From Flavobacterium supellecticarium (GTDB lineage Bacteria; Bacteroidota; Bacteroidia; Flavobacteriales; Flavobacteriaceae), in contig NZ_SSNZ01000002.1 in the NCBI RefSeq assembly GCF_004801375.1, forward strand, positions 806,001 through 870,000: 64,000 bases of DNA, given 5' to 3'. Under the pieces are notes generated by a model. That model was not told the origin of the DNA and did no database searches. It saw only the letters and a list, made by a program, of their open reading frames with translations. Below are positions 6,891-30,177 of the stretch, piece after piece (the first letter of the stretch is position 1; each line of letters opens with the position of its first letter). The position numbers were made by a program, and so were the translations under genes.

Positions 6891-6992
6891 AAGAAATATT
6901 GGCAATTGACAAAAATTGCAAAACATTGATTGGACGTTCAACAACATTTGTTTGCCTAAAAAGGAGTGCTAAAATAACATTCGCAGGTGGAA

Positions 6993-7008
6993 TAGGTATT
7001 TTTACCTG
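6993..7008 (+). promoter_or_regulatory. TAGGTATTTTTACCTG motif before the collar operon
   Basis: Near-palindromic AGGTA-TTTT-TACCT element whose first base is exactly 76 nt upstream of the ATG at 7069. The related motif at 23202 has the same 76-nt offset from the amidase gene. The position fits an activator or promoter element. Confidence 0.5.
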
Positions 7009-7068
7009 TAAGAAATCTACGAAAAAGTTATAGGTTCGGCCTTTGAAAATGGAACGATTTTAAAGCGT

Positions 7069-7806
7069 ATGAAAACAGCTAAAAGACAGCAGATTACTAC
7101 AAAAGACATTATCTTGTTTCTTCTTTTTTTAATAGCCAATGCTTCGGTGTTGTTTGCTCAAAATGATGCTTTAAAAATACTTCCGAATGGAAATGTTGGC
7201 GTAGGAGCAACCAATCCGAACGAAAAACTTCAGGTCGCCGGAAACATTAAATCGGAAGGACGGATCAAAGACAAAACCGGAAACGTAGTACCGGTAGGTT
7301 CTATTATGGCGTTCGCCGGCGCACAGGCACCGGATGGCTGGTTGTTGTGCGATGGAAAATCCTATCCGGTATCAGGCGACAAAAATGACCTTTTTAATGT
7401 AATCAGTACGACTTATGGAGGCGGTAACGGTCAGTTTAATGTACCCGATTTACGACAAACGTTTGTGATGGGCGCCAATCCGGCAAACGGAAACGAACAA
7501 TTGGGTAAAAAAGGAGAAGCCGACCGGCATACACACAGTATCAATCCTCCGGGCCAGTCATTTAAGACATCGGATGACGGGGCGCATTACCATAGATTCA
7601 ATCCCAACTGGTATAAAAGAAATTTTGGATCAGGAGGTTACTCCGGCATCGATACAGACGGGACAGATATTAAAAACCAGACGACAGAAAGTGTTCCAAA
7701 TCATTCACATTCCGTTTATGTTGCGTTACCGGCTTTTACAAGTGGTGAATATACGGGACAAAATCGCCCGAAATGGATGGCTCTAAATTATATCATAAAA
7801 TATTAA
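7069..7806 (+). CDS. secreted phage tail collar domain protein
   Basis: 245-aa protein with a Sec signal peptide (1-31). It then has the Bacteroidota fibre-type repeat N-G-N-V-G-V-G-A-T-N-P...KLQVAGNI (39-61) and a phage tail collar domain starting at VPVGSIMAFAGAQAPDGWLLCDG-type sequence (about 74-140). The C-terminal His pairs DRHTH and NHSHS are the kind that bind metal in trimeric fibre tips. Collar domains cap trimeric beta-helical fibres, so this is probably a surface or secreted fibre. It is first in the long plus-strand operon. The signal peptide distinguishes it from real phage tail fibres and from the second collar protein at 22540. Confidence 0.85.
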   Translation: MKTAKRQQITTKDIILFLLFLIANASVLFAQNDALKILPNGNVGVGATNPNEKLQVAGNIKSEGRIKDKTGNVVPVGSIMAFAGAQAPDGWLLCDGKSYPVSGDKNDLFNVISTTYGGGNGQFNVPDLRQTFVMGANPANGNEQLGKKGEADRHTHSINPPGQSFKTSDDGAHYHRFNPNWYKRNFGSGGYSGIDTDGTDIKNQTTESVPNHSHSVYVALPAFTSGEYTGQNRPKWMALNYIIKY

Positions 7807-7829
7807 CCTAACATTAAAATCTAATAATT

Positions 7830-8528
7830 ATGGCAGTAACAATCTCCGAAATTCAAAACCTTACGACTTCAGATGTATTAAGTAATGAGGATATAGCAAA
7901 ATTCAATAATGCGACAGCCTATGCCGCAACTATTGAAGCAAAAGACGTGACTTCAACCTGGAAAGCTTCGGATAATATCCAGGTAACCTGGTCCAATGGT
8001 AATAAAGTAGTAACAAGAGCCGTTAACGGAACGATAGCAGTTGCAGATGGTAAATGTACGATAAGCGGATTAGTCGATGTGTCCAAATACAGTGTAGGTT
8101 TAAACGGACAAATTGGAATTGGTCCGAAAACAAACCCGGAAGCCGTTTTAGTGAGCGTACGAATTGGAAATATCCCAACCGCCAACAATCCGAAAGCCGA
8201 CTGGATTATCGATTTTAGCGACAAACAGGAAAGTGCACCGGGTACCAGTATCAAGTTAAACGAGCTTGTGGAGTGGATTCAGGGCAAATCGAACGATACT
8301 ACAACTGTTAGTTTTCCTCCAGTTAAAGCCGGTGAAAAAGAGATAAAAGATTATACCATCGAGTTTAAAGATTTTTATTATAACGCTACGCAAAATACAT
8401 TCGATTTTAATGTACAGTCAAAAGATGGCGATACCATACAATTTGGCAATTTTACCATTAAGAAAGCAGGTTTTCGGGTAACCAATACGCCGCAAACCGT
8501 TGCTACAAAAGCTATCGAAAAAGCATAG
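7830..8528 (+). CDS. hypothetical protein, 232 aa
   Basis: No recognised family. There is no signal peptide or membrane segment. An N-terminal helical start (about 1-35) is followed by alternating beta-type segments, with one acidic/amphipathic helix around residues 145-160 (KLNELVEWIQG). It lies 23 nt after the secreted collar gene and 139 nt before the 1088-aa gene. That gap contains an imperfect GGGATCC/GGATCCC hairpin that could attenuate transcription. Membership of the fibre/giant-protein operon is inferred from spacing and strand. Confidence 0.65.
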   Translation: MAVTISEIQNLTTSDVLSNEDIAKFNNATAYAATIEAKDVTSTWKASDNIQVTWSNGNKVVTRAVNGTIAVADGKCTISGLVDVSKYSVGLNGQIGIGPKTNPEAVLVSVRIGNIPTANNPKADWIIDFSDKQESAPGTSIKLNELVEWIQGKSNDTTTVSFPPVKAGEKEIKDYTIEFKDFYYNATQNTFDFNVQSKDGDTIQFGNFTIKKAGFRVTNTPQTVATKAIEKA

Positions 8529-8567
8529 TTTCCAGAGCAAACGATTTTAAAATAAAACTACCATTCA

Positions 8568-8607
8568 AAAGGGATCCGGTTTAGCTAATAAATTAAGGAT
8601 CCCCTTT
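8568..8607 (+). terminator. imperfect hairpin, possible attenuator
   Basis: AAAGGGATCC (8568-8577) pairs with GGATCCcCTTT (8597-8607) with one bulge and a 19-nt loop. There is no strong T-run after it, so it may only reduce read-through inside the operon. Confidence 0.4.
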
Positions 8608-8667
8608 GTATGAACAAACCTGTCGTTTTCAGATAGGTTGATCATAGTACAATAATTACCGTTTAGT

Positions 8668-11600
8668 ATGGCAGCAAATAACTCCTTTTTAGTAGAAATC
8701 ACGGGGCAGACAGCATTCCATTTGGGAAATCCGTCTGCTCCGCTTGCTGTAGACATTGCGGTCGGTTACAGAAGCAGGATTGTAGAAAACGACCAAAGAG
8801 AACGTTTTTTATATGCCACGTTGACCTCAGAAAATAAAAACGGGATCAGCATACAGGATATCATCAATTGTTGTACGAACCAACCCGCAGTAATACCGGA
8901 TCTCCTAAATGCGGTTACGTTAAAACAGTTTTCGGTAACCTATGGTTCCGGCGGTATGGATGCGACGGATTTTAAAATTGAATTCAACTGTAAACTTCAT
9001 ATCAACGACAGGTATTTTGATGCCGTTATTACGATCGATTACCAAAAAAACGGTTCGCAAACGACCTTCGCTTTTGGAGGAATTTTATCGGTAGAGGAAC
9101 ATCGTTTTGCCTTACATTTTGTTCAGGAAAAAGAAGCGGGTTATCTGTATGCCGCCTATCAGAACTTTGGGAAAACAACCATCGATTTACGCGCCTTAGC
9201 CACAAAATTCTTTGGCGAAAGTGCGACCAACAAAATGCCGGCACTTTCCTTTACACTCGAAACTTTTAAAGCCTTTTTGCTGTATAAAAAAGAAAAAGAC
9301 ACCTCCGGTTTGTGTTTTGGAATGGGCGCGGGACTTGAACTCGATTTAAACGATCTTCCTTTGGCCGGACCGGTGTTAACGCAGGGGCGTGCCTTTGCTT
9401 TTAAAGAAGTACTGGCTTTATATAGCAACGGAACTTTTGAAAAAGAGGTCTTACAACGCTTTGAGGCCTTACCACCGGTAGCAATTGGTTCCGGATTTAA
9501 TATCACGACACAACTCGAGATTAATGGCGAAGCCGAATACTATGCTTTAAACGACGGAACGGATCAGGAGTTTACCAAACCAGAACAGCCACAGCAAACA
9601 AGTGTTACTGCGGTTGCACCGCTAGGCGACGGTATCATTGCTAAGGCGAAATGGAAAAAAATAGATAAAAAAATAGGCCCGGTAACTTTACAACGATTGG
9701 GGTTTGCCTATCAGGATAGTAAGGTCGTATTACTGCTCGATGCCACCATGGAAATGAAAGGCATGGGCATGCAACTCATGGGATTTGGTCTCGGCTTTAA
9801 GTTACAATGGCCACCCGGAATACCGGATTTCTATCTGGAAGGACTCGGACTTTCGTATACAGCACCACCAATCGAAATATCAGGTGCCTTTTTGCATACA
9901 ACAGCTTCTTACAACGGAAAAACGATTGATGTATATAATGGCGGGGCGATTATAAAAGTAAGTCGTTTTACGATCTCGGCCATCGGATCGTATGCCAAAG
10001 TAGCCGATGAAGCATCCTTGTTTATTTATGGCGTATTCGACGGTCCTATAGGTGGTCCGGCTTTCTTTTTTGTAACGGGAATTGCCGCCGGATTTGGTTA
10101 TAATCGTAAAATAAATGTGCCTTCGATAAACGAGGTAGCACTATTTCCATTGGTAGCATTGGCCATGCGACCGGAAGAGGATCAGGGATTGTTACCCTTG
10201 TTGGCTTCATTGGAAACCCCTATGAAAAACGGTAAAAAACCGATAGAGATTTCTATTGGGGATTACTGGTTGGCAGTTGGAATTAAATTTACTTCCTTTA
10301 AACTGATCGAGTCGTTTGTACTGCTAACGGTCAATTTTGGAACCCAGCTGGAATTTGCAATTCTAGGACTTTCCCGACTGAGTTGGCCGGAAAAATCGAT
10401 GGCTCCGCAACCGATCGTGTATGTGGAACTTGCGATTTTGGCGCATTTCGGACCGGGTAGTGATGTGATCGCTGTAGAAGCCGTTGTGACGCCAAATTCC
10501 TATGTCCTTTCCAGAGATTGTAAGCTATCGGGAGGATTTGCTTTTTACACCTGGATCAAAGGACCTTATGAAGGGGATTTTGTGATTACATTGGGAGGTT
10601 ATCATCCGAAGTTTATAAAACCGGCGCATTATCCTAGCGTACCGCGACTGGCCTTAAGCTGGAAAATTAGCAGTCTGGTGTCGATTAAAGGAGAACTGTA
10701 CTACGCGCTTACCGCTTCGGCAATTATGGCAGGTGGTAAATGGGAAGTACTTTTTAAAACCTCAATTATCAAAGCGTCGATTGTGATTTGGGCCGATATG
10801 CTCATTGCCTGGGCACCGTTCCACTATTATATCGATATGGGGATTACGGTTAAAATCGAGGCCGATATTAAAATACTATTTATCCGGATTCATTTCAGTT
10901 TCGAAATGGGAGCGGAACTACATATATGGGGACCTCCGTTTGCCGGAGAAGCCTACGTGGACTGGACGATATTCTCGTTCACCATTCCTTTCGGCGATCA
11001 TTCCAAAAAAGAACCGAAAAAGCTGCAATGGACAGAATTTGCAAGCGGTTTTATACCACAGAAGAAAAATACCGTATCGACCAACGCCCGACTAAAAGAA
11101 GGCGAAGCAGCCGGTATTTCCAATCCGGATCCAACCAATATTACCATTAGTAATGGATTGATTGAAGTAAAGGGAGTCGACAAATTCCCGGTCATCAATC
11201 CGCACCAGCTGGCCATTACAATTGACTCTTTTATTCCGGTATCTCAATTAAAAATTAATGAAAAGGAAGTATCCGGAAGTACCGTGATGAAATCGGAAAC
11301 GGGTGATACTATTTATGCCAACCGCGAACAAAACATCGGAATCCGTCCGTGTGGTTTTACCACAGGAACCGTAGCATTCCAGATGAATGTCGATGTGGTG
11401 TTAAACGGGACTAAAATGCCGATGACGGTTTCCGGTATTGCAAAAGGAGTCGCAGAAGCCTTATGGAGTGGCGAAGCATCGAAAAGCACGAATGCGAACC
11501 CGGGAACCACGAAAATACTAACGAATGTACTGAGTGGTGTGATGCTTCAACCACCAGCGATCCCGCAGGTTGCGCAGATTCGCACCTTCGATTTTTCAAC

Positions 11601-11934
11601 CTTATTTGACGCTTCCAAAACCGAATTTGACTGGATATTTACGTTAGCCAAAACCGGAGAAGCCTATCATGCGATTGAAGTGTTGGGCTATTACGATGAG
11701 GTGAACCATATCAAAGTAACGGGTATTCTGGAAAGTACATACGAAGAAAATAATGTAAAAACGAAACGGGAAAAAATAGTAGCGCTCCTTAAAGCGGGAT
11801 TTGACGAAAGTTTCCCGGATATCGATGAGGACGCCATAAACAGAAATATGTCTAATGAAGACGATTACTTTACCGGTATTCCGGTGATTTGCGAAATAGG
11901 ACAGTTGCCACAATACAGTACCGATGTGAAATAA
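8668..11934 (+). CDS. giant beta-rich protein, DUF6603-like
   Basis: 1088-aa protein without signal peptide. From memory, the middle (roughly residues 335-760) resembles the uncharacterised DUF6603 type: long runs of alternating amphipathic strands rich in Gly and aromatic residues (LEGLGLSYTAPP, FDGPIGGPAFFFVTGIAAGFGYN, GPYEGDFVITLGGYHP). This could form a large beta-barrel or beta-sheet lamina. The C-terminal about 280 residues are polar and mixed alpha/beta. It is followed 22 nt later by the 732-aa gene on the same strand. The function of DUF6603 proteins is not known to me. A lipid-facing or self-assembling role is only inference from the alternating hydrophobic pattern. Confidence 0.6.
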   Translation: MAANNSFLVEITGQTAFHLGNPSAPLAVDIAVGYRSRIVENDQRERFLYATLTSENKNGISIQDIINCCTNQPAVIPDLLNAVTLKQFSVTYGSGGMDATDFKIEFNCKLHINDRYFDAVITIDYQKNGSQTTFAFGGILSVEEHRFALHFVQEKEAGYLYAAYQNFGKTTIDLRALATKFFGESATNKMPALSFTLETFKAFLLYKKEKDTSGLCFGMGAGLELDLNDLPLAGPVLTQGRAFAFKEVLALYSNGTFEKEVLQRFEALPPVAIGSGFNITTQLEINGEAEYYALNDGTDQEFTKPEQPQQTSVTAVAPLGDGIIAKAKWKKIDKKIGPVTLQRLGFAYQDSKVVLLLDATMEMKGMGMQLMGFGLGFKLQWPPGIPDFYLEGLGLSYTAPPIEISGAFLHTTASYNGKTIDVYNGGAIIKVSRFTISAIGSYAKVADEASLFIYGVFDGPIGGPAFFFVTGIAAGFGYNRKINVPSINEVALFPLVALAMRPEEDQGLLPLLASLETPMKNGKKPIEISIGDYWLAVGIKFTSFKLIESFVLLTVNFGTQLEFAILGLSRLSWPEKSMAPQPIVYVELAILAHFGPGSDVIAVEAVVTPNSYVLSRDCKLSGGFAFYTWIKGPYEGDFVITLGGYHPKFIKPAHYPSVPRLALSWKISSLVSIKGELYYALTASAIMAGGKWEVLFKTSIIKASIVIWADMLIAWAPFHYYIDMGITVKIEADIKILFIRIHFSFEMGAELHIWGPPFAGEAYVDWTIFSFTIPFGDHSKKEPKKLQWTEFASGFIPQKKNTVSTNARLKEGEAAGISNPDPTNITISNGLIEVKGVDKFPVINPHQLAITIDSFIPVSQLKINEKEVSGSTVMKSETGDTIYANREQNIGIRPCGFTTGTVAFQMNVDVVLNGTKMPMTVSGIAKGVAEALWSGEASKSTNANPGTTKILTNVLSGVMLQPPAIPQVAQIRTFDFSTLFDASKTEFDWIFTLAKTGEAYHAIEVLGYYDEVNHIKVTGILESTYEENNVKTKREKIVALLKAGFDESFPDIDEDAINRNMSNEDDYFTGIPVICEIGQLPQYSTDVK

Positions 11935-11956
11935 ACAGGGGTAAAACGTAACAAAA

Positions 11957-14155
11957 ATGAGTGAGAATACAAAAATAGTACAATGCTTTTTACCTGCCAT
12001 GGTTGCCGGAAAATATACAACGGTCGTCCATCAGCAGGTAATTAAAGACAAGTCAAGCCTTCAGGATTTGAATAAAACATTCGATTTTGGAGTCGATGCG
12101 GCTCGGTTTACGCTAAATCCGAATGATATTTATTCGGTTTATCCTCCCGCTAACCAGTCGGGAAACTATTCGGAATCCTTGCCTCATTTGGTATTTACCC
12201 GACGCACCTTGCCGTGGGAACGTACGTTAGACGGAAAACTTCCGGTTTTCCAACGCGACACAACTCCGGAAAACCTGCGTAACCCACAGGATTCGCCGCC
12301 CGTTCCCTGGATGGCCTTACTGCTTTTTGACGAGGAGGAAATGAAAGGGCTACCGATTACTAAAAATACCATTGCCGGAGTGATCCAACCGAATCTTTCC
12401 GATGGTATTATCCGACCGGATATTTTTGAAGCGAAGTCGACCGACAAAGGAACTTTAAAACTGATGGAATGGGAGAAAACAACGGATGGCTGTTTTACCA
12501 TTGACCTGACCAAAGAACAATTTGAAAATTATATTCCGTCCCAAAAAAGTCTCTCCCTGTTGGCACATGCCAAAGAGGTGCGTATCGATAATAAAGACAA
12601 AGACGGAATTACCGATATCAATGCCGATGGAGCCGGTGTTTTTGCCGTGATCGTCGGAAATCGCCTGCCGGCCAAAGGAAAGCAACATACCGCTATTCTG
12701 GTATCACTGGAAGGCTATACCGACTATTTAAAAGACGCGGATCCTAAAAAAAACATCCCGGACGATCATAAAGTCCGACTGGTGGTACTGGCGAGTTGGA
12801 ATTTTATCGATTCGGGAAAAGCCAGTTTTTCGCAATTAGTTGACGGACTCGAACTAAAAAGTATCAAAATTCAACGGGGAGTGGAAGCACCGGAACTGAC
12901 CACCTATTTTGATTCGGGGTATGTCCCGTTGGAACATCTCACGCGAACCGGAGCGAATACCATCAGCTGGTATCATGGGCCGCTGGTACCGAAATTATTT
13001 CCGACAACGTCAAAGGGTATTTCTTTTAGTTCGGCCGATGCAGCATTGCGCTATGATAAAACCACCGGTTTTTTTGATATTTCCTTTGCGGCAGCATGGC
13101 AATTGGGACGTATACTGGCTTTGCAGAACCAGGAGTTTTCGAAGGCCATTTTAAACTGGCGTCTGGCGCAAAATCAACTCGAAGCCGAAAAGTCAAAAAA
13201 CAATACGCTAAATGCCATTTTGGAGGACGACAGTGCGATCAACATAAAAGATAAGGTAATCCGTTATCTGGGCGATTTGCACGCGGTTACTACAGTCGTT
13301 CCAGAAGAAACAACAACCGATTTGCCAACAACCGTCCCGAATGAAGTGAAACACTTTTTAGGAAATTTGTACAAATTAAACGGAATTCCGTTTTCCTATA
13401 TTGTTCCGCATGAATGGTTACTGCAGAAGGAACACCTTAAAAATAATAAAAACTACACCGGTACCTTATCACTGTTTTATGTCGATCCGAATTGGATAGA
13501 AGCTTTGTTGGACGGTGCGCTTAGTATTGGCAGAACCAATAAAAATGAAGCTTTACTGGAGCAGGCGGTGAACGGTAATTTTATAGACGGATATCAGACG
13601 CAGTCGATGGAAATCAGTGGTGGAACCATCGAAAAAAAAGGAAGACGACTCAATACGACCGGATTCCTGCTTCGGTCGGATCTGGTATCGGGTTGGCGCG
13701 GACTCGAAATCACGGCTTTTGATGCCGATAATCAGTTGCTTCCTGCTTTGCGTTTTGAGCGTATTGATTCGGATATTTTCCTGGGAATTTTCGACGGTAA
13801 CATTGCCAGTATTTCGATCAAACAACCTTACGAGGGTTTGCATTTTGGGATCAAAAACAATAATGCCTATATCAAAAATCTAAAAAATGAAGACGGTACC
13901 AATCAGGAAATAGCCGATGGAACCGCCGATGTGAATGCCGAATTAAACGATGGACTAATTAAAAACAACGTTATCGATATCGCCGGATTAGCCCGTGTGA
14001 TGCAAGAAAAACTAACCGCTAAAAACTGGATGGAAATCACAGACGAAAGCAAAGGAATCCACTTTACATCCGCCGAATTTGCCTACCAGATGGTCGACAG
14101 TCCGGTAAAAAAGAATATTGCGATTAACATCCTAAATACCGATAGCCATGTGTAA
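11957..14155 (+). CDS. hypothetical large protein, 732 aa
   Basis: Unknown family. There is no signal peptide or transmembrane helix. Notable segments are the aromatic/charged TRRTLPWERTLDG (about 78-90), PVPWMALLLFDEEE, SWYHGPLVPKLFP (about 335-347) and AAWQLGRILALQNQEFSKAI (about 380-399), which look like conserved structural blocks rather than enzyme motifs. The C-terminus contains an EKLTAKNWMEI region with no signature. It overlaps the next gene by 8 nt, implying coupled translation and perhaps a fixed-ratio complex with the 1183-aa protein. Confidence 0.65.
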   Translation: MSENTKIVQCFLPAMVAGKYTTVVHQQVIKDKSSLQDLNKTFDFGVDAARFTLNPNDIYSVYPPANQSGNYSESLPHLVFTRRTLPWERTLDGKLPVFQRDTTPENLRNPQDSPPVPWMALLLFDEEEMKGLPITKNTIAGVIQPNLSDGIIRPDIFEAKSTDKGTLKLMEWEKTTDGCFTIDLTKEQFENYIPSQKSLSLLAHAKEVRIDNKDKDGITDINADGAGVFAVIVGNRLPAKGKQHTAILVSLEGYTDYLKDADPKKNIPDDHKVRLVVLASWNFIDSGKASFSQLVDGLELKSIKIQRGVEAPELTTYFDSGYVPLEHLTRTGANTISWYHGPLVPKLFPTTSKGISFSSADAALRYDKTTGFFDISFAAAWQLGRILALQNQEFSKAILNWRLAQNQLEAEKSKNNTLNAILEDDSAINIKDKVIRYLGDLHAVTTVVPEETTTDLPTTVPNEVKHFLGNLYKLNGIPFSYIVPHEWLLQKEHLKNNKNYTGTLSLFYVDPNWIEALLDGALSIGRTNKNEALLEQAVNGNFIDGYQTQSMEISGGTIEKKGRRLNTTGFLLRSDLVSGWRGLEITAFDADNQLLPALRFERIDSDIFLGIFDGNIASISIKQPYEGLHFGIKNNNAYIKNLKNEDGTNQEIADGTADVNAELNDGLIKNNVIDIAGLARVMQEKLTAKNWMEITDESKGIHFTSAEFAYQMVDSPVKKNIAINILNTDSHV

Positions 14156-17100
14156 TACTTCCAGACTTTTTGTGCCCCTGTATATGGAAGCCCTGGCCCT
14201 GGGGAGCGATAAAAACGATTGCATGGATTTGGGGCCGCAATTACAACAATACAACCAAAGTATTCTGGGGAATGTCCTACAACCCGATACCGACAAAACA
14301 GTAGCACTCCAAAAAGGAATTCACCTGCACTGGACTTTACCCAAAGCTTTAAAACACGCTTTTATAAACGAAGGGGAAGAAGTCCAATTTCCGTATGCGC
14401 CCAACCGGTGGATGGTGATCCGAATCCGGACGGACAAAGGAATCAAAAACATGGAATCCCGGATGTGGATCGTTAAAAGTGATGAAAAAAATAGCATCAA
14501 AAATAATAAACCCACACCCAATTGGGTAACACTACACGACGACAAACTGGATTTCAACAACCTCGGAAAAGTGGTCGAATGGTCGGCGGCCTATGAAGAG
14601 ACTACCACACCGCCTGTTTTAACCGGTGTAGGTGCTGTAAACCCGTATTTTGCGTCGTTATACCAAAGTAGTAAAAATGTATTTGGTTTCCACGATGATA
14701 TGGCCGACATTGATTCGGATTGTACGGTTGCCTACGTTGTTACCGGTTGGTACAATGATCCCGCTATGGATCCGTTGGCACCTTTCGATTTTAACGAAGC
14801 AACGGCAACAAACGAACAGATTCGTCAGAAAAGAACACAGGATTGGTTTAAACAACAATGGAAATGCGATTCGGAAGCTTATCCGGAATCCAGTTTACTG
14901 CATGCGGCCATCCATAGTATTCAATGGAACAGCGAATTAAAAAGCGGCGTTCCGGACGGTGCGATACAAGTCTATGTGGGCAATACCGCCATCGAATCGT
15001 TAAGTGCTCAGATTATCAAAAGCAGTGCGATTGAAAAACCGGGTGTGGAAACCCTGTTAAATGCCTTGCAATATCAGTTTCTGGAAGATAGTAAAAACGA
15101 ACCGGGACTGAAATCGATTCAGACTGAAATTCATAAAAGAGGCTTTACACCTAAAAACAGAGGCTCGATCTGGGAAATCACCCGGGTAGAAGCGACCGAT
15201 AAAGCCTTGGAAGACAAACAGGACGACCGACCGCATTTCCCGGAAAACAGCGCGATTCTAAGCGAGCTGAATGACTTAAATAAAACGCAGATCAGCTGTA
15301 ACCAAATTAAACAGGAAATCCTACGACTACAACAGGAATATTACTTTCTGTGGTACAAACAAGCCTATAAAACCGTAAATGATTATACGGTTCCAAACTT
15401 TGATTACACGACCTCCAGAACCAACCTGTTGGATCAGTTGGTGAGTAAAAAAGTAGAAGCCGATGTATTGGATCGGGAAATCCAGCAACGTACATTTAAC
15501 TTGCGACAATATCAGGAATTAGCAGGGGAAAATCCGGAGTTTGAACTAAAAGAAACCCTTGAAGATCGTTTTTGGGAACCTAATGATCCGGTTTTGTTGC
15601 TTTGCGGATCGGGCATTGGAACTACCGAAAAACCGGCTTTTCAGGCCATGGATAAAGAAATAAACTGCCGACAGGAAGCGCAGTTGCTCACAAAGCTCTA
15701 TCTCGATGTTCCGTATAACGACACCAGCATTCCGGTGGTTATTCCGGCTACTAAAATTAGCGTTCCGGATGTAGCGGCCTTACAACATCCGAAATTACCT
15801 TTTACAGCAATACAAGCACTAGTATCCGAAACACTGTTATTGGATCACTCGCTTGCTGTGGATATCGCGTTACAAGCCTATATCGAAGCGCAACTGGGAG
15901 AAGGAAAAGACAAAACCAGTGCTGTTATCAAAGCCTTTGGTCAAAAAGTGATCGAAGTACAATCGAAACCGGAATACCGGGAAACCGAAAAAGCGCACGA
16001 AAGTTTTGCCATTACCCAATGGGAACAGGCCTGGACACCACTGTTTATGGTCTGGGATATGGAATATAGATCCAATAATCCGGATATCAATAATCTGGAT
16101 CTTATGGAAGATACGGCAAACTGGAAACTGGAAGAAGGGCTGTATTTTAAAAAGCAAACAACAAAAGAACAGGGAGCGCCTATTGGCATTAGCGGCATAA
16201 GTCCGTTTACAAATTCGGTATTTGCCAACCTGAAAAAAATGGTTCCGGAGGCAATCGTCAATAAATACGGGGAACTCAACCTGATTGCACAGGCTTTAAG
16301 TGGTTTGCATAAAAATTTACTGATGCAGCGCACCGATATTCAATTGCCTCCTTTTCACTATAACAGTGACCCTGATTATAATTTTGAAACGGAATATCAG
16401 ATTGACCGGAACGAGCTCAACATAATCGGGGAAGATGGCTATAAACTGGGATGTGATCCCGGAAATACCAACGGCGCGGATGCTACGGCTTTTAATCCGT
16501 TGCGCTCGGGGGCTATGGTCATCAAAAAACTTTCGATTGTTGATGCCTTTGGTCAGGTTAAAAAAGTAATAGTCGAAAACGATAATGCTAATTCAGATAT
16601 TGGCTGTGCGGTTACGTTGCAAGGCGATGATCAGTCGGGTAGAAGCATTCCGTTACCGCCACGAATCATTCAGCCTTCCCGTTTGCAATTTCATTGGTTA
16701 AATGCCAGCGACACTATTCTGTATCAGGACACGGGAAAAATGGATAATCCTGTTTTAGGATGGCTGGTTCCCAATTATTTAGATAATACTATTTTAGTGT
16801 ATGACGGAGACGGAAATGAAATATGCCTATTGCAAATAACCTCGGATCTAACCCAAAATAAAGGCTCAAAGCTAATCCGGCAAGCCTTTCCGGGCGGTAA
16901 TGCAATTCCGGAAGCGATACATCCGCAGTTGGAAAAGCTACTCAAAACACTCAATAGCGGAAGCAGGGCTACGGGGATTATGGACCTGGCCTATAAAGTG
17001 AGTGTAAATGCCACGGGGAATGCGGCTTTACAAAATACAACCTCGGCCTTGCTATATGGGCAACCCTTAGCTTTAGTGCGTTGCTCGTTAGGACTGGAAA

Positions 17101-17699: not shown

Positions 17700-17711
17700 A
17701 AGGATAATAAT

Positions 17712-19508
17712 ATGGGATATGTAACTACCGGCAGCAGTAATTCGGTTACGAATGGAGAAACACTGGCGTTGGATATAATGATCGCTCAGGACGAAAAAAA
17801 GGCCATCTTACTGATGGGGATTTTTACGATTGAAAATTTAGATACTCTGGTAGCGGCAGCCGATTTAAAAAAACTAAGCTGTGAGCTTTGGGCTAAAACG
17901 GACGACGTAAACAAAACAACGACTTTTCCTGTGAAAATCTGTGAATTTTCATACGATAACAACAACCCGGGAAAACGAATATATAATTTTCCGAAAGGCT
18001 ATGATGATGGCTATACCTATCTGATTGTAAAAATCAGAGCGGCAAAATGTACGGTTACGACACCATCGACTACCTTACAACTAAGCTTTAAAGATAAAAA
18101 CGATCCAACCGATCCAAAACCGTTGGTATCGCTTCCTTTTACTGTCATCGCCGAAGAGGCCAAACCGGAAATCAAGCTGTTTGAATCGGATAAAACAGTA
18201 GTGCAGCGCAATGCTCCGGTTACGCTATCCTGGGACGTTAAAGGAACCCGGTATATTGTAAGAGAAGGACTGGAAGAACTCAAAAGTGGTACAGACGGAG
18301 CAGGAAGTTATACGATAGCCAATATCGCCAATGGAGATCACTCGTATACCTTAGAAGTACAAATGGGTACGGTTTCGGTAACCAAAACAATATTGGTCCG
18401 CGCTTTAGGAGAATCGAAATTATATTCGAATGCAAATCCGACCGGAGCGTATGCGGCTTATAAGATTGGTAATTTTTGCGCCGGACAAGATGCCGCTTAT
18501 CTATATAGCTTAATGCTAAAAACGGAAAATAATAAAACTCAGATTGATCATATAGGATATACCAATACCAACGAAGGCTTTTCGGATAATTGGCATCGCA
18601 TAACACTTTCTGAAACCGAAAAAAACAAGCTAAAACCTTTTGCAACCGCACCGTTATTGCATATGAAAAGTGCGGGAGAGTTGCACGGGCGCCTGTTTTT
18701 TATAGGAGGTAGCTATGTCAAACCGATGGAATCTGCTAATGCGGTGGCGATTGTTACTCTGGATGCCGAAAGCGAATCCAGAGTAACCGTTATCGATAAT
18801 TTACCATGGGATTCCCGTATGGGACATTCGTGTGCGATTTTTCCGCATGGCGATCAGGATAAAATCTGGATGATGGGTGGTGTAAATGAATGGGGCGCGG
18901 CTTTAAATGATATTTGGGTATCGGGCGATGGTAAAGTATGGGATAATATTGGTTTAAACGGAAGCGTAAATCCGGACAAAACCAATCCTGTAAAAATGCC
19001 GTGGAAAGTAAGATGCTTAAATGGAATTGCAACCGAATTGGATGCCAACGGAAGTAAAACGGCTTTATGGTTGGGCGGTGGTTTCTCGGAAATAGGCGGA
19101 ACCGAAATCTCGGATATCTGGAAATGGGATAAAAATAACTGGACTACCATTACACCGTTGATCATCAATAACAATTCGTATTTATCGTCCGGATTGTCCT
19201 TTTTGGGAAAAGACACGATCGACAGTACGGGTATTTTTTTACTGGGCGGCTATCAGGAACAGGAAAACAAGAAGAAATATTTTTACAGAGTAACGTTAAA
19301 TAACGGTAAATATGGTAGCAATCAGATGGATACGTCAGCCGGTGTAGACAGCTTTGCAACTACAAAAGATTCCAAGATCGTCACAGCCTTTTTTAAAGGT
19401 TGCTTATGGTATATGGTATTCACCAACGAAGGAGATTTGGGAATAACCTATTCTGATTTGTTTTACTGGGTACCGGTAGCCACAGGTCGGACTTTAATTT
19501 TAACCTAG
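17712..19508 (+). CDS. Ig-like plus Kelch/beta-propeller-like protein
   Basis: 598 aa, no signal peptide. The N-terminal about 145 residues are beta-rich and unassigned. Residues about 150-235 look like an Ig-like domain (ETEKP-type start, QRNAPVTLSWDVKGT). The rest has Kelch-type blades: paired GG motifs followed by W (LFFIGGSYV, WMMGGVNEWGAALNDIWVS, LWLGGGFSEIGGTEISDIW, FLLGGYQEQ). Such propellers bind proteins or glycans. It follows the giant gene by 12 nt and ends at the edge of the next gene's leader. Likely an accessory or recognition subunit of the same assembly. Confidence 0.7.
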   Translation: MGYVTTGSSNSVTNGETLALDIMIAQDEKKAILLMGIFTIENLDTLVAAADLKKLSCELWAKTDDVNKTTTFPVKICEFSYDNNNPGKRIYNFPKGYDDGYTYLIVKIRAAKCTVTTPSTTLQLSFKDKNDPTDPKPLVSLPFTVIAEEAKPEIKLFESDKTVVQRNAPVTLSWDVKGTRYIVREGLEELKSGTDGAGSYTIANIANGDHSYTLEVQMGTVSVTKTILVRALGESKLYSNANPTGAYAAYKIGNFCAGQDAAYLYSLMLKTENNKTQIDHIGYTNTNEGFSDNWHRITLSETEKNKLKPFATAPLLHMKSAGELHGRLFFIGGSYVKPMESANAVAIVTLDAESESRVTVIDNLPWDSRMGHSCAIFPHGDQDKIWMMGGVNEWGAALNDIWVSGDGKVWDNIGLNGSVNPDKTNPVKMPWKVRCLNGIATELDANGSKTALWLGGGFSEIGGTEISDIWKWDKNNWTTITPLIINNNSYLSSGLSFLGKDTIDSTGIFLLGGYQEQENKKKYFYRVTLNNGKYGSNQMDTSAGVDSFATTKDSKIVTAFFKGCLWYMVFTNEGDLGITYSDLFYWVPVATGRTLILT

Positions 19509-19531
19509 TGTACCAATTTAAAATAAAGATT

Positions 19532-21574
19532 ATGAAAAAAATAAGGTATAGCTATATTCTTGCAGTATTATTACTGCTCACAAAACCGCAGACACTGTTG
19601 GCGCAATCAAAATATACCGTTGTATTGCCGCAAATCGACATGGCATTACAGTCGGATGGTAGTGGCGATTTACGGGTTGCGGCCGATGATAAAGGAAACG
19701 AAACCTATAAGTCTTTTTTTAAATTTGACTGTAACAATTTGCCGGCCAATGCCAAGGTTATGACCCTGAATTTGAAATTGTACAACATGCCCAATGATAA
19801 GATGTCTGAATTTTCGGTTCAGACGATAACGGCTTTAAAAGGAACCAATGGATGGACCGGAAGTGAAACGAGTTTAAATGATCCGAAACTAAGCTGGGCC
19901 ATTTTGAGTAATAATACGGAAGGTCCTGTAGGTCGGGCGGAGATACGGAAGAGCACGACATCGATCGCGATGAAACTCAAGTTCCCGGGTTCGCTAAAAC
20001 CGGTTGCCGATTTTCTGCCGGACGGTATTTTATCTCTGGCGGCACGATCACCGGAAAAAGGACAGGATACTCGTTTTTTCTCTTCTAAAACCGCAGAATC
20101 GTCTTCCAATTTTACCAAAAAGCCAAAATTACTGGTGAACTACGAAATCGATCCGTATCCGTTTCGGGAAGATTGGGCGCAGTCGTTTGGAAACATGCAG
20201 CACAATAGCCTGCTAAACTGGAAAAGCAATACGTATGTTCAGGAAGCCCAAACCCGTATACTTCCCTATGGTGGCGGGTACCTGCAGGAAGTCGGTTCTA
20301 CGGGTGCCCTTGCGATTTATAAAAATTTACCCCTAGTATTTACGCAGGAAACTACCGGAACACCGACTGTTTTTAATGTAAAACAATTGGATTCGAAAGG
20401 AAACGTTTTGTGGAAACAAGGAGTAGACGATGTCGCCAAATCATGGCCGTTAATCGATGAGCAGGGTCGTTTGTATTATATCTCCAAATCCGGAAAACTG
20501 AGTATCTTGGATTTAAACAATTCCGGAAATATTCTATTTAACAAACTGTTGTCGGAGATTACAAATCAACAGCTGACAACCCTTAACAATACGGCAACTA
20601 TCGGATATGACGGAACGCTTTACCTGCCCTCCGATACGGGAATTGTTGCGCTGTCGGCTTATCCGCAATTAAAAATACGTTGGAAATACACACCGAAAAC
20701 AAATGAACTTTGTGGCCCGGTTTCGTTAAGTCCGGACGAAAGCAAATCCTTCTTTATTGTGGTCGATACCCAACAAAAAAAGAGCCGACTGGTGGTATTG
20801 GATAATTTAGACGGAAGCATACTGGCCACATCCGATACGGTTTTAGATGGCTATCAGAACGATATTAATTTTTATATTCCGGCACCGGTGGTTCAGGACA
20901 ATACCCGTGTTTTTGTGTTGAATGGCTTCGACAACAGTAACCAGCTTTTTGTATTTGATACCGATGATAAAGGAGCGATTGTCCGAACTCAGTTTATAAC
21001 TTCCGGAAATTCGGAGAATACCGGCATTTCGCAACCGGTGATCAATGCCGAATCCAATGTGTTTTTGGTATTCCAATCGAAATTAGCAAAGTATAATGAG
21101 AAACTGAATAAAGCTGAGGTCTTCGAAAAATCGGCAACTTTGAATACGGCCTCGATAGTACTCACCGATGCGTCATCGCGTATTTATGCTACCGATCCGT
21201 ACAGTACACCCAAAATGATACTGGGCTTTCAAAACGATATTGACAATCCGAATGCCTTTGCAATGGCTATCAATCCGACTATCGGGTATACCAGAAAAAA
21301 TATGGTTTTGGCTCCGGATGGAACATTATATACGGCTACGGCTACGAATCTGATAGCGGTTACGGCTACTAAAGTTGCCCAAAACGATGCGGTTATCAAT
21401 CAGGCGAATTTAAAAACGAATACCGTTTACCGTGCGACAAATAGCATTACGGTCGAAGGGATTACCGTGGCACCATCTGTAAATGTGATTCTTAATTCCG
21501 GTGGAAGCATTTCTTTTAAACCGGGATTTACCGTAACCAAAGGCGCACAACTCAATTGTAAAACAGCAAATTAA
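19532..21574 (+). CDS. secreted protein with CBM96/DNRLRE-like domain and propeller
   Basis: The ATG at 19532 is preferred over the GTG at 19508 because it starts a clean signal peptide (MKKIRYSYILAVLLLLT...LLAQ). Mature layout: a DNRLRE/CBM96-like carbohydrate-binding domain (about 30-210, with YKSFFKFDCNNLP); a PQQ/WD-like beta-propeller (about 240-610) with repeats such as VLWKQGVD, YDGTLYLPSD, IRWKYTPKT; and a short C-terminal domain (VNVILNSGGSISFKPGFTV) typical of Bacteroidota secreted proteins. It is probably exported to the cell surface, where the N-terminal module could bind polysaccharide. It lies in the same operon, followed 28 nt later by the S74 protein. Confidence 0.7.
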   Translation: MKKIRYSYILAVLLLLTKPQTLLAQSKYTVVLPQIDMALQSDGSGDLRVAADDKGNETYKSFFKFDCNNLPANAKVMTLNLKLYNMPNDKMSEFSVQTITALKGTNGWTGSETSLNDPKLSWAILSNNTEGPVGRAEIRKSTTSIAMKLKFPGSLKPVADFLPDGILSLAARSPEKGQDTRFFSSKTAESSSNFTKKPKLLVNYEIDPYPFREDWAQSFGNMQHNSLLNWKSNTYVQEAQTRILPYGGGYLQEVGSTGALAIYKNLPLVFTQETTGTPTVFNVKQLDSKGNVLWKQGVDDVAKSWPLIDEQGRLYYISKSGKLSILDLNNSGNILFNKLLSEITNQQLTTLNNTATIGYDGTLYLPSDTGIVALSAYPQLKIRWKYTPKTNELCGPVSLSPDESKSFFIVVDTQQKKSRLVVLDNLDGSILATSDTVLDGYQNDINFYIPAPVVQDNTRVFVLNGFDNSNQLFVFDTDDKGAIVRTQFITSGNSENTGISQPVINAESNVFLVFQSKLAKYNEKLNKAEVFEKSATLNTASIVLTDASSRIYATDPYSTPKMILGFQNDIDNPNAFAMAINPTIGYTRKNMVLAPDGTLYTATATNLIAVTATKVAQNDAVINQANLKTNTVYRATNSITVEGITVAPSVNVILNSGGSISFKPGFTVTKGAQLNCKTAN

Positions 21575-21601
21575 TACAACGCTTATTAAATGATACCTAC
21601 C

Positions 21602-22492
21602 ATGAAAAAAAACTATTGGTTATTGGGAACCCTACTTGTTATCCTTTCGAATCCGATCCAGGCGCAAACAGAGGCGATGAAAATTCTTCCGAATGGCAAT
21701 GTGGGAATTGGCACGTCTACACCTACACAAGCCAAATTGGTTGTTTCCGGAGAACAAAGCACTAACGCGAACGGCATGTTTATGTACGGTTACAGATCCT
21801 CTAAAATTCTCGACTCGGGAACGGTAAAAAATTCGATCTATGCAACCGATGGTGTCACGGCACAACAATTTAATGTGGTATCGGATGCGCGTATTAAAAA
21901 GATATTGGGCGTAAGTAATACTGCCCGTGACCTGGATATTCTTTCCAGAATTGAGATAACGGATTATAAAATGATCGATTCGGTTCAACGAGGCAATCAG
22001 GTTTATAAAAAAGTCATTGCCCAACAGGTGGAACAAGTCTATCCATTGGCAGTAAATACGAAACAAACCGAAGTTATTCCGAATATTTATCAGCTAAGTA
22101 CCCTTAAGAATGGCTGGATATCGGTACCGACAAAAGACCTTGCTGTTGGCGACAAAATCAAATTGGTTTTTAGTAGCGAAACAATGCTCACGGATATACA
22201 GGCGATCAGCAAAGAGGGGATTCGGGTGAATTGCCCAAAAGAAGGAAGCGTTTTTGTGTACGGAAAAGAAGTACACGATTTTCATTCCGTGGATTACGAA
22301 GCGATAGCGATGCTGAATGTCAGCGCGACTCAGGCCTTGTTAAAACGCATTGAAATGTTGGAAGCCAAAAATACAAACCTGGTTCAGGCGGTAGGCAAAC
22401 TGGAAAAAGAACAGCAAACCACAAACGATCGCCTAAAGGCAATAGAGAAATTAGTACTACCGGTGGTCGCCGAAAACGATGCTGTAAAATAA
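21602..22492 (+). CDS. secreted fibre protein with S74 intramolecular chaperone domain
   Basis: 296 aa if started at the ATG at 21602, which begins a signal peptide (MKKNYWLLGTLLVILSNPIQAQ). An in-frame ATG at 21590 is less likely. The mature start repeats the MKILPNGNVGIGTSTP fibre motif found in the first collar protein. A Peptidase_S74 chaperone core follows (SDARIKK with the Ser/Lys auto-cleavage dyad, then DILSRIEITDYKM and VIAQQVEQVYPLA), with a C-terminal coiled coil (about 245-285). S74 domains trimerise fibres and then release themselves. Together with the two collar proteins it argues for trimeric fibres made by this operon. Confidence 0.85.
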   Translation: MKKNYWLLGTLLVILSNPIQAQTEAMKILPNGNVGIGTSTPTQAKLVVSGEQSTNANGMFMYGYRSSKILDSGTVKNSIYATDGVTAQQFNVVSDARIKKILGVSNTARDLDILSRIEITDYKMIDSVQRGNQVYKKVIAQQVEQVYPLAVNTKQTEVIPNIYQLSTLKNGWISVPTKDLAVGDKIKLVFSSETMLTDIQAISKEGIRVNCPKEGSVFVYGKEVHDFHSVDYEAIAMLNVSATQALLKRIEMLEAKNTNLVQAVGKLEKEQQTTNDRLKAIEKLVLPVVAENDAVK

Positions 22493-22539
22493 TAAAAAGA
22501 AGAAAGAAGAAAGACTATTAATGATCAAAATAAGATACT

Positions 22540-23064
22540 ATGAAAGTTAATGATTTTACGACGGTTCCGTTGGGAACCATATTGCCTTTTGCGCTTGATG
22601 TGACTTGTATACCGGACGGCTGGTTACTATGTGATGGTAAGGAAATACCAACAAAGTATAAAACATTACGGGAATCATTTAAGATTTATAATACTCCTAA
22701 TTTAATCGGGAGAACATTAATTGGTTCTGGAATGATTAAGGACAGCATCAGCGCACAATCAGATGGGAAAAGTCCAAATTTTGGAGGGCCTGCAAGTTTG
22801 ACGCTGGGTTATACAGGGGGAGAGTACCAACATCAATTAACGATTAACGAAATGCCAAGACACTGGCATAAAATCAATGGTGGTAATTTTGGATTACATC
22901 ATCGAAGTTTTAGTGGTAGTGGTGACTCCGATATTCCTTTTAAAACCAATGCCGAAGCTGCCAGAGTTTTGACCGGAACCGATTATGAAGGCGGTGACGC
23001 TTACCATAACACCATGCAGCCCTATTATGTGATCAATTATATTATTTATGCCGGAAGTGAATAA
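22540..23064 (+). CDS. phage tail collar domain protein without signal peptide
   Basis: 174-aa short collar protein: VPLGTILPFALDVTCIPDGW (9-28) followed by LLCDGKEIP, RTLIGSG and the NEMPRHWHKINGG His cluster, ending in a YYVINYIIYAG-type terminus shared with the 7069 protein. It lacks the signal peptide and the GNVGIGT repeat. It is the last gene of the operon, before a clear terminator. It could be a tip or receptor-binding subunit assembled inside the cell, or exported by a different route from its secreted relative. Confidence 0.85.
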   Translation: MKVNDFTTVPLGTILPFALDVTCIPDGWLLCDGKEIPTKYKTLRESFKIYNTPNLIGRTLIGSGMIKDSISAQSDGKSPNFGGPASLTLGYTGGEYQHQLTINEMPRHWHKINGGNFGLHHRSFSGSGDSDIPFKTNAEAARVLTGTDYEGGDAYHNTMQPYYVINYIIYAGSE

Positions 23065-23090
23065 AATCGGTTAAAAAGTGGAATACTGAT

Positions 23091-23121
23091 AAAATGGGGT
23101 TTTATGCCCCATTTTTGATTT
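23091..23121 (+). terminator. rho-independent terminator of the collar operon
   Basis: AAAATGGGG (23091-23099) pairs with CCCCATTTT (23107-23115), followed by T-rich sequence, 27 nt after the last collar gene. It separates the large operon from the amidase unit. Confidence 0.85.
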
Positions 23122-23201
23122 CTTTTTGTTACAATAACGATTAAAAAGAGTGCGTTATGAGCCATGTCGTAAAAAGGCTACACGATTCGAGTACTTAAAA
23201 T

Positions 23202-23217
23202 TACGTATTTTTCCGTA
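23202..23217 (+). promoter_or_regulatory. TACGTATTTTTCCGTA motif before the amidase unit
   Basis: Near-palindromic element. Its first base is 76 nt upstream of the ATG at 23278, the same offset as the 6993 element before the collar operon. This supports a shared regulator for the two units. Confidence 0.5.
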
Positions 23218-23277
23218 TTGACAAGTAAGTGCTAAGATGTTAATTTAGACTGCTTTAACTTTTTAAATAACGACACC

Positions 23278-24264
23278 ATGGAAACAAAATACGGATTTAC
23301 CAAAATGACCGTTCCAGAATTTGAAACCTGGATTTCAAATCTCAGAGTGGGACGGACGATTTTAAAAGTGCAACAACACCATACCTATATTCCCAGTTAT
23401 GTCCACTTTACGGGGAACAATCATTTTGACCGACAATTGGCCATGAAAAACTTCCATGTCAATCAAAATGGATGGCAGGATATCGGGCAACATTTTACCA
23501 TTTTTCCGGACGGAACGGTTTTGACCGGTAGAAGTCTGGAAAACTCACCGGCCTGTATACTCAATCAAAATGCATATGCCATTTGCATCGAAAATTTCGG
23601 CAATTTTGATCAGAATGCCGATGTGATGACAAATGTCCAAAAGGATGCCATTATAGCCATTACCGCGGCTTTATGCAAGCGGTTTAATTTACCGGTTAAC
23701 TCCAATTCGATCGTTTACCACCATTGGTTCCGTTTGGATAACGGCGTACGGAATAATGGAAGCGGAAACAATAAATCCTGCCCGGGAACCAACTTTTTTG
23801 GCGGTAACAAAGTGCCCGATTTTGACACTAATTTTGCCCCTTTAGTCCGCGCAAAACTCGGCAGTCATCCGATAAAAACCGACACCAGTGCGATTACTAA
23901 ATATGTATGTGTAACCGCCAACAGTCTTAATGTCCGCACCGAACCGGATGGCGGAAGTCCAAAAGCGACCGATCGTCCTGCCATTCCATTGGGCGCTATT
24001 TTGCGGGTGTATGAAGAAAAGGACGGCTGGTTAAAAATATCCAATACCCAATCCAACTGGGTGGCGGCGCGCTATACCGTTGATGTAAAAAGAGCTACCG
24101 TAAACGCTACGATTTTAAATGTAAGAACCGGTCCCGGTACCAATTTCCCTAAAGTGGATCGGGTTGAAAAAGACGAAGAAGTTTTTGTTTTTGAAACACA
24201 GAACGGCTGGTGTAAAATTGACCTCGGAGACAAGTGGGTGACGCAATCGTATTTAAACTTTTAA
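23278..24264 (+). CDS. N-acetylmuramoyl-L-alanine amidase with two SH3b domains
   Basis: Peptidoglycan amidase of the Amidase_2/PGRP fold (about 20-190). Zinc ligands are plausible at H34/H35 (QQHHTY), H148/H149 (VYHHWF) and C168 (SCPGTNFF). Two bacterial SH3 domains follow (about 206-265 and 270-328), each with the LNVRT(G/E)P signature, for cell-wall binding. There is no signal peptide, so delivery to the wall would need another route, as with phage endolysins or injected effectors. It starts its own transcription unit (terminator and motif upstream) and is 12 nt ahead of a membrane hydrolase. Confidence 0.9.
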   Translation: METKYGFTKMTVPEFETWISNLRVGRTILKVQQHHTYIPSYVHFTGNNHFDRQLAMKNFHVNQNGWQDIGQHFTIFPDGTVLTGRSLENSPACILNQNAYAICIENFGNFDQNADVMTNVQKDAIIAITAALCKRFNLPVNSNSIVYHHWFRLDNGVRNNGSGNNKSCPGTNFFGGNKVPDFDTNFAPLVRAKLGSHPIKTDTSAITKYVCVTANSLNVRTEPDGGSPKATDRPAIPLGAILRVYEEKDGWLKISNTQSNWVAARYTVDVKRATVNATILNVRTGPGTNFPKVDRVEKDEEVFVFETQNGWCKIDLGDKWVTQSYLNF

Positions 24265-24276
24265 AACGACAACCCA

Positions 24277-25494
24277 ATGGAAAAAGTAGGGGTTTATATT
24301 TCGGGTTTAGGGCAATCGTTTCAACAGGAATCGTTTGAAAAATATGCCATCCGTCTTAAAAACGAGTTCTGTTTTACTGATAACGGAAGTGAGTTTGAAC
24401 TAAAAACGGAGAAGATTGTTTATACAGAGGAAAGAGACAGCACAGTAGTAAGTATTTTTAAATACAAAAAAGACAATCCGGATAATGCCGAACTGGTGTA
24501 TAAATTATACGATTTTAAATACCATGAGATTTTAACGGAGCGCTTTAAAAAGCAAAATCTACTGCTTAAAAACCTGATTCTACTAGGATTAATACTCAAA
24601 AAACTACCACAGCTTTTTTTGCGAATTTTTAGCAGGGGTAGTTTTAGCCGACCATATCTTACGTTTTACGCTTTTTTAGTTTTGCTGGTCATTTCACTGG
24701 CGATCATTTTCCTGATACCGGCCAGTATCGATATTGTGACGCAATATGGTGCACAGAAAGAAATAAAGACTCTTATTGAAAGCTGTCATCTTGATTTTGA
24801 AAAAATTACCGGCTTTTTGTCGGGCCTCTCGCAAAAAACAAAATGGTTTGTTCCGATTACCACCTTTATACTGCTGGTTATTCCGGAATCGAAAACCTTG
24901 TTAACCTCATTGGCGACCGAGTTTGTTTGTGTGGATCAATATATCGAAAATGGAGATCAGAGTCAGCTGGTGCTTGGAAATCTGGATTTACTGATCGAAT
25001 ATATTGCCGAAAACGATCCGAAGGCACAGATACACTATCACAGCTATAGTTTTGGAACGATTATCGCGATGGATTTATTGTTTCCGATAGGTAATGTTCC
25101 GTCGGCCAATACCAAAGACAGGAGTGAATTGCTGATTACAATAGGAACGCCATATGAATTTATAAATGCTTATTATCCGAAGTTTTTTAACAACAGAAGC
25201 GCTCAAATGGAAACAAAGTTGACGTGGATGAATGTCTATTCTATTGCCGATGCCCTGGCGACCAATTTTAGAAAAGACACCAACCGGGGCCCGGCTTTAT
25301 TTGGGATCGATGGGTTTTCGCTTTTGCCAATCAACATCAATTATGAAGTGACGTCCGACAAAAGCATGACACTATTCAATTTTATTACGATGTATGCGAT
25401 CCGAATGCATAAATGCTATTGGGATGCGTCGCCTAACGGACAGAGTTGTATCCGGGTGTTATGTAACGAAATGAAAGCACGCGGCTTTATCTAA
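24277..25494 (+). CDS. membrane-anchored lipase-like alpha/beta-hydrolase
   Basis: 405 aa. The N-terminal part is soluble (1-125) and followed by hydrophobic helices at about 131-150 and 190-203. The C-terminal domain is an alpha/beta-hydrolase with a nucleophile elbow HSYSFGT (Ser258; SxSxG rather than the usual GxSxG) and the ITIGTPYEF strand typical of lipases and esterases. The catalytic His may lie near MHKCYWD at the end. It follows the amidase by 12 nt and is followed by a strong terminator. The pair could attack wall and membrane, or remodel the host's own envelope. The substrate is unknown. Confidence 0.65.
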   Translation: MEKVGVYISGLGQSFQQESFEKYAIRLKNEFCFTDNGSEFELKTEKIVYTEERDSTVVSIFKYKKDNPDNAELVYKLYDFKYHEILTERFKKQNLLLKNLILLGLILKKLPQLFLRIFSRGSFSRPYLTFYAFLVLLVISLAIIFLIPASIDIVTQYGAQKEIKTLIESCHLDFEKITGFLSGLSQKTKWFVPITTFILLVIPESKTLLTSLATEFVCVDQYIENGDQSQLVLGNLDLLIEYIAENDPKAQIHYHSYSFGTIIAMDLLFPIGNVPSANTKDRSELLITIGTPYEFINAYYPKFFNNRSAQMETKLTWMNVYSIADALATNFRKDTNRGPALFGIDGFSLLPININYEVTSDKSMTLFNFITMYAIRMHKCYWDASPNGQSCIRVLCNEMKARGFI

Positions 25495-30172: not shown

Positions 30173-30177
30173 TTTTT

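Follow-up and report, generated by a model that had tools for sequence, protein, structure and literature searches.

Extracellular contractile injection systems and tailocins combine phage-type collar and S74 fibre parts with exchangeable cargo genes, and their core parts mostly lack signal peptides, while Tc toxin complexes bring together giant proteins, propeller and receptor-binding parts, and an enzyme cargo. In polymorphic toxin systems, as presented in the searched text of one review (Zhang et al., 2012; PMC3482391), the exchanged module consists of C-terminal toxin domains. Here we analyse a 64,000-nucleotide stretch of Flavobacterium supellecticarium (contig NZ_SSNZ01000002.1, positions 806,001 to 870,000; hereafter the window), in which eleven open reading frames (ORFs), o1 to o11, all on the plus strand, lie at 7069-25494. 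We give about even chances to the proposal that nine of them, o1-o9, encode a target-binding complex delivering the protein of an exchangeable slot just 5' of a DUF6603 gene. The layout of such a device is seen in a core that stays fixed while a cargo-like neighbour and the recognition heads are exchanged.

The set is not confined to the window and was found in other loci from at least nine bacterial phyla. In a literature search, judged from its listings, no published account of this gene set was found, in line with the initial annotation, which had pointed to a set without described counterpart: the genes are genuine, and no known system matches them. All eleven ORFs are present with the sizes it had given, and they are listed here with the hairpin that separates the last two.

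7069-7806 (+): o1, trimeric fibre tip; Collar match (PF07484, 67.5 bits) and PHROG tail fibre matches
7830-8528 (+): o2, 232 amino acids (aa), occupying the exchangeable slot immediately 5' of DUF6603; neither a signal peptide nor a known domain
8668-11934 (+): o3, core protein, DUF6603 (PF20248, 474.8 bits)
11957-14155 (+): o4, core giant protein of 732 aa, unnamed family
14148-17699 (+): o5, core giant protein of 1183 aa, unnamed family
17712-19508 (+): o6, N-terminal region, immunoglobulin (Ig)-like segment (residues ~145-235) and Kelch-like propeller
19508-21574 (+): o7, signal-peptide-like start, then DNRLRE/CBM96-like and beta-propeller segments (Pfam and NCBIfam matches below the cut-offs) and a stack domain at the C terminus
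21590-22492 (+): o8, S74 intramolecular-chaperone fibre (PF13884, 24.0 bits; own-genome search) with PHROG tail fibre match and signal-peptide-like start
22540-23064 (+): o9, second Collar protein (PF07484, 34.1 bits)
23091-23115 (+): terminator-like hairpin of 10 pairs with a T-rich tail, which may close the o1-o9 unit
23278-25494 (+): o10 and o11, neighbouring unit; Amidase_2 with two SH3 domains (o10) and a membrane protein, hydrolase-like by eye (o11)

The three-protein core and its distribution

The score of o3 against PF20248 lies far above the curated cut-off of 27 bits, and o3 is accordingly a member of DUF6603, which Pfam names as a family of unknown function and of which no mention was found in the literature searched by that term. 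Neither o4 nor o5 has a match above the cut-offs of Pfam, NCBIfam, or PHROG, and profile searches with o3, o4, and o5 returned no credible sequence relative in the PDB (for o5, one row at E 0.33). When searched against the PDB, the AlphaFold models of o4 and o5, with predicted local distance difference test (pLDDT) values of 85 and 83.4, respectively, gave no match at E<=0.001. The initial annotation had counted three large proteins with function not known and had called for profile searches and structure prediction; these place o3 in DUF6603 and leave o4 and o5 without a family or PDB structure match. The o5 model is composed of beta domains and a long helical hairpin (~residues 368-453), and in two Chitinophaga loci (L035, L036) o5 and o6 form a single protein.

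For comparison, 94 loci (L numbers) were mapped: 80 were selected by o4, as the best of 160 stretches from tblastn over one genome per species, 13 were chosen by DUF6603 in a sample of 296 genomes from the phylum to which the window belongs (Bacteroidota, by its named nearest relatives), and the window itself was added. Among the 13, L028 is a sub-cut-off match without any core, and L074 and L095 repeat L020 and L025. ORF calling was mechanical; o4 was masked by an overlapping ORF in five loci and was recovered there by tblastn. The window's set recurs widely in this sample, with o3 and o4 together in 89 of the 94 loci and all three core genes in 75. DUF6603 accompanies o4 in 76 of the 80 loci fetched by o4, and three of the remaining four lie near a contig end; the fourth, L104, is the sole locus with o4 and without DUF6603 despite 10 kb on both sides. 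Its o3 may sit just beyond the stretch examined, since o3 is placed behind o5 in L069 and L094. The initial annotation had named a lack of conserved co-occurrence among the homologues as grounds for abandoning its proposal, and instead they co-occur strongly.

Across the 296 genomes, DUF6603 was found over the cut-off in 12, o4 in eight and o5 in seven, and the occurrence is nested, with o4 only inside the 12 genomes with DUF6603 (Fisher p 4e-13) and o5 only inside the eight with o4. One of these eight, G111, has a weak o4 match (E 1e-5), and together with the four DUF6603 genomes lacking o4 it makes up a divergent subfamily (L022, L023, L024, L026, L027), in which the order of giant genes is unchanged: DUF6603 comes first, a remote o4 second, and a third gene of 1635-1920 aa is unrelated to o5. 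Most loci have the order o3-o4-o5, while o5-head-slot-o3-o4 is the order of many loci in cyanobacteria, of some in Chloroflexota, and of some others. Pairwise distance matrices over 39 loci correlate at r = 0.85 for o3-o4, 0.80 for o3-o5, and 0.93 for o4-o5, the best of 1000 permutations reaching 0.25, which would support, and not prove, contact between the three proteins.

Relatives of o4 number 540 proteins (120 of them listed) and those of o5 number 65. On a tree of 57 o4 rows with nine named phyla, the phylum label changes 19 times against a minimum of eight, below all 200 shuffles (mean 29.9), a count that paralogues, binning errors, and long branches can inflate. The phylum labels on this tree are clustered, yet more scattered than a single origin per phylum predicts, and transfer appears likely. 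In a genus sample o4 occurs in four of 199 genomes, that of the window among them, and eight plasmid records carry relatives, each below 60% identity. Searches of o3, o4, and o5 against 50,697 phage records by tblastn gave no match, and viral contigs yielded no confirmed relative of o3, so that core proteins present in phages, as expected of a prophage or phage remnant, were not found.

The exchangeable slot 5' of DUF6603

As slot we considered the upstream ORF of at least 120 aa; those separated from DUF6603 by over 500 bases were not counted as cargo, and the small ones may not be real genes. Upstream ORFs in 77 loci fall into 36 slot groups (E<1e-5), about 30 of which lie within 500 bases of DUF6603, and deeper comparison is expected to merge some of them, for instance two metallo-beta-lactamase groups (hhalign 76%). 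Scanned singly were 33 of the ~40 distinct adjacent slot proteins of at least 300 aa, L036, L042, L054, L056, L089, L099, and L102 being left unscanned. Enzymes over the Pfam cut-offs account for 13 of the 33, a raw count given without a background rate for enzymes beside other genes, and they belong to five superfamilies: five have the metallo-beta-lactamase fold, three are class-3 lipases, two have the endonuclease/exonuclease/phosphatase fold, one is an M91 peptidase, and two are subtilases. One further protein matches DUF4135, and three are sub-cut-off metallo-beta-lactamases. Characteristic motifs are present as well, namely H-x-[HDN]-x-D-H in the slot proteins of 10 loci, HELVH in that of L060, and GTSMA in those of L022 and L024, the two loci of the divergent subfamily whose slot protein is a subtilase. 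The proteins of one slot group (L102, L106) are of the fibre type, and L021 carries a tandem pair of related slot proteins.

The slot is exchanged between closely related cores. Between L052 and L055, o4 is 76% and o3 62% identical, and the slot proteins are unrelated; likewise, the slot is replaced between L056 and L072 (o4 54%) and between L076 and L089 (o4 68%). Conversely, distant cores such as those of L048 and L049 have a common slot family. Among upstream proteins of at least 300 aa, 45 of 47 have no signal-peptide-like start, and the two exceptions lie more than 500 bases away. An exchangeable cargo-like gene beside a conserved core, a feature of delivery systems, is therefore present at the level of the family, and the gene just 5' of DUF6603 is the likely cargo position. 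Relatives of o2 are found in 12 of the 94 loci (the window and 11 related Bacteroidota loci), always in the slot.

A separate observation concerns one slot family of six loci (L107:2647-5103 and five relatives), which contains an invariant EWCHL...GHGDGG...NF...EQ block and possibly represents an unnamed nuclease family.

The hydrophobic, beta-amphipathic core of o3 spans residues 332-807, and over 77 DUF6603 proteins the core has a median grand average of hydropathy (GRAVY) of +0.28 and a median beta-moment z of 4.1 (minimum 2.5), in contrast to o4 with a GRAVY of -0.31 and no beta-amphipathicity. Such a core might form the wall of a cavity, bind a hydrophobic partner, or insert into a membrane. 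These values also suit a lipid- or polymer-processing complex, in which the DUF6603 domain would bind lipid, the slot enzymes (class-3 lipases, metallo-beta-lactamase-fold and endonuclease/phosphatase-fold hydrolases) would act on it, and the fibres would only position the complex; several of the slot superfamilies include lipid hydrolases. The subtilases, the M91 peptidase, and the several families without a match that share the slot do not fit such a function, however, and the exchange of collar, S74, and Kelch heads is hard to explain by it, which makes this alternative improbable in our view.

Recognition heads and the location of the parts

Two collar proteins and one S74 fibre had been noted initially, and both assignments stand, since o1 and o9 exceed the Pfam cut-off of 24 bits and o8 that of 22. 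The Kelch (o6) and CBM-like (CBM96, o7) matches were seen again, but both fall under the curated cut-offs. Profile matches among the 94 loci number 36 for the o1 type, 34 for the o6 type, 32 for the o8 type, and 23 for o7, where the o1 and o8 profiles overlap via a common repeat motif ('LPNGNVGVG' in o1). The heads share an adaptor of ~130 aa, often in tandem. It was found in 51 proteins from 44 loci, a count in which one genome appears twice; collar/S74 fibres, Kelch proteins, and lactonase propellers carry it at or close to the N terminus, and four o5 proteins carry it C-terminally. By profile the adaptor has no credible PDB relative (best E 0.49). The Ig-like segment that comes after the adaptor is common to o6 and adaptor-bearing relatives.

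In a Lachnospiraceae bin, a sub-cut-off Hint-type self-processing domain was observed two genes downstream of o5 (L068:17288-19153).

Signal-peptide-like starts were judged by a simple, crude hydrophobicity measure and by eye, with a threshold of 2.0 across loci. By this measure o1 (2.87), o7 (2.12), and o8 (1.97) start like exported proteins, and o2-o6 do not, the nearest being o4 (1.83) and o5 (1.78). Besides, several relatives of o1 and o8 from Acidobacteriota and Nitrospirota have, by eye, a single hydrophobic segment after a charged start, a segment that is not seen in cyanobacterial fibres. The o5 starts that pass the threshold carry a conserved LLVP...EALVV-like segment, and the location signal of o5 is ambiguous.

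The starts of o1, o7, and o8 and the hydrophobic segments in relatives of o1 and o8, together with accessory genes dominated by recognition domains, would also be expected of a surface-attached adhesion or matrix assembly, in which fibres, propellers, and lectin-like domains attach cells to a substrate, the giants serve as scaffold, and the slot supplies extracellular matrix-processing enzymes. On the other hand, o3, o4, and the slot proteins have no signal-peptide-like start in nearly all loci, and an M91 'effector' family peptidase and endonuclease/phosphatase-fold proteins are odd for a matrix. We consider this assembly unlikely, though it is the rival that we rank highest.

For the delivery complex, we speculate that o3-o5 would assemble together, in or from the cytoplasm, that the fibre and propeller heads would choose the target, and that the hydrophobic, beta-amphipathic DUF6603 domain would hold the cargo or make the membrane passage. 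In the window the cargo position would be occupied by o2, either as a non-enzymatic effector or as a structural part replacing one.

Several points weigh against delivery. The main gap between the reading of the family and the window is o2 itself, which has no Pfam or NCBIfam match over the cut-off and is no recognisable enzyme, and 16 of the 33 scanned slot proteins likewise lack a family match. As o1, o7, and o8 look exported and o2-o6 do not, the complex would have to be put together outside the cytoplasm; the gap between o8 and o4 or o5 is small, however, and the assignment of these three was made by eye. Across loci, starts of at least 2.0 were found for three of 81 o3, one of 68 o4, and none of 35 o6 proteins, and for 22 of 58 o5 proteins. 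A 19-residue hydrophobicity window of at least 1.6 is reached in 47 of 77 DUF6603 cores, and membrane helices are therefore possible in this domain. No relation to the adaptor is detectable at the N terminus of o6 (hhalign probability ~1%), and the correlations between distance matrices fall short of proof of contact because shared species history contributes to them. No recurring immunity gene was identified, although no systematic search for one was made. Export, assembly, transfer to another cell, and the target are all inferred.

Neighbouring genes and comparison with known systems

The division into two units that had been proposed for this locus needs a correction: most simply, the units are o1-o9 and o10-o11, since the longest terminator-like stem lies between them. 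This stem (23091-23115) is the longest in a terminator scan of 6700-26400, of which the total is at chance (22 found vs 21.8 in shuffles). An amidase and lipase-like pair had been taken as wall-attack enzymes belonging to, and possibly delivered by, the system. The amidase is confirmed by the Amidase_2 and SH3 domains of o10, but o11 matches no hydrolase family, 'lipase-like' reflecting a motif seen by eye. Moreover, relatives of o10 and o11 occur in one of the 94 mapped loci only, which is the window (phmmer, E 1e-5); with both genes not conserved with the system, neither their membership nor their delivery is supported. On these grounds, and given the stem, the conserved system is the nine genes o1-o9 (7069-23064), and the o10/o11 pair lies outside it.

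Other genes of the window include an Imm33-like immunity-type protein (PF24719, 72.2 bits) at 25634-26296 (-), convergent with o11, and, directly upstream of the cluster at 1552-5548 (+), a tetratricopeptide repeat (TPR) histidine kinase, a LytTR response regulator, and a GH64-like beta-1,3-glucanase (39.2 bits). The histidine kinase and LytTR genes are possible regulators of the cluster. A DUF805 RNA motif (Rfam RF03081, 78.2 bits) lies at 53140-53208 (-).

It had been stated that the window has no sheath, tube, baseplate, or AAA+ gene of a contractile injection system, and this statement holds for the sheath across the window and for the other parts within o1-o11. A PF04984 search of the same genome matches only on another contig, and tube, baseplate, or AAA+ genes are missing from the matches of o1-o10 (Pfam and PHROG, up to E 1) and of o11 (Pfam), apart from fibre-tip types (Collar; Gp10_C below the cut-off).

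Elsewhere in this genome, contig 13 carries at ~18000-37100 (L128) a contractile-injection-like cluster with two sheath-like ORFs (sub-cut-off PF04984) and, by eye, tube-, spike-, PAAR-, and baseplate-like ORFs.

With this sheath/tube/baseplate-like cluster in the same genome, the locus might be an accessory set that supplies payload or fibres to a phage tail or contractile injection system whose genes lie elsewhere. On a Paenibacillus plasmid, ~9 kb separate the locus from genes with the annotation baseplate protein V, and sheath matches are somewhat commoner with DUF6603 (6/12 vs 69/284 genomes, Fisher p 0.08). Yet no sheath match at E<=0.001 was obtained in six of the 12 genomes with DUF6603, and the absence of core relatives from the phage records argues in the same direction, which leaves this the least probable of the alternatives, and a very unlikely one.

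A bolder proposal, which we put forward tentatively and hold to be less probable than delivery as such, is that DUF6603-o4-o5 forms a third, phage-independent type of delivery machine, next to Tc toxins and contractile injection systems: a shell or translocon of three giant proteins, whose slot would be reloaded with unrelated enzymes, whose adaptor-docked heads (collar, S74, Kelch, and lactonase propeller) would be exchanged to change the target, and which would have spread by transfer across many phyla. If true, this would be a new machine type for cell-cell contact, found sporadically across nine or more phyla, and two of its giant families have no curated match. Its cargo could be sought directly in any genome through the slot 5' of DUF6603, and the exchange of slot genes between similar cores makes the delivery idea testable now.

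Among described families, DUF6603 (PF20248) is the one to which a core protein, o3, belongs. Polymorphic toxin systems, according to the searched text of the review (PMC3482391), resemble the present loci in their tail-fibre repeats, exchangeable toxin modules, and occurrence in bacteria of many phyla; there, however, C-terminal domains are exchanged, whereas the exchanged module is here encoded by its own gene, 5' of the core, and the terms 'collar' and 'Kelch' were not found in that text. Contractile injection systems and tailocins are alike in how they work, with collar/S74 fibres, an exchangeable cargo-like gene, and a core mostly without signal peptides, but the window has no sheath match and half of the 12 DUF6603 genomes are without one. 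Tc toxin complexes (ABC toxins) would likewise be similar in operation, with their giants, propeller and receptor-binding parts, and enzyme cargo, but o3, o4, and o5 have no sequence relative in the PDB, and a Pfam search of o1-o10 up to E 1 matched none of the TcA, TcB, and TcC domain families. With the sheath, tube, and baseplate genes of the one and the domain families of the other not found, the best reading by analogy is that the o1-o9 system would work like contractile or Tc systems while being unrelated to either.

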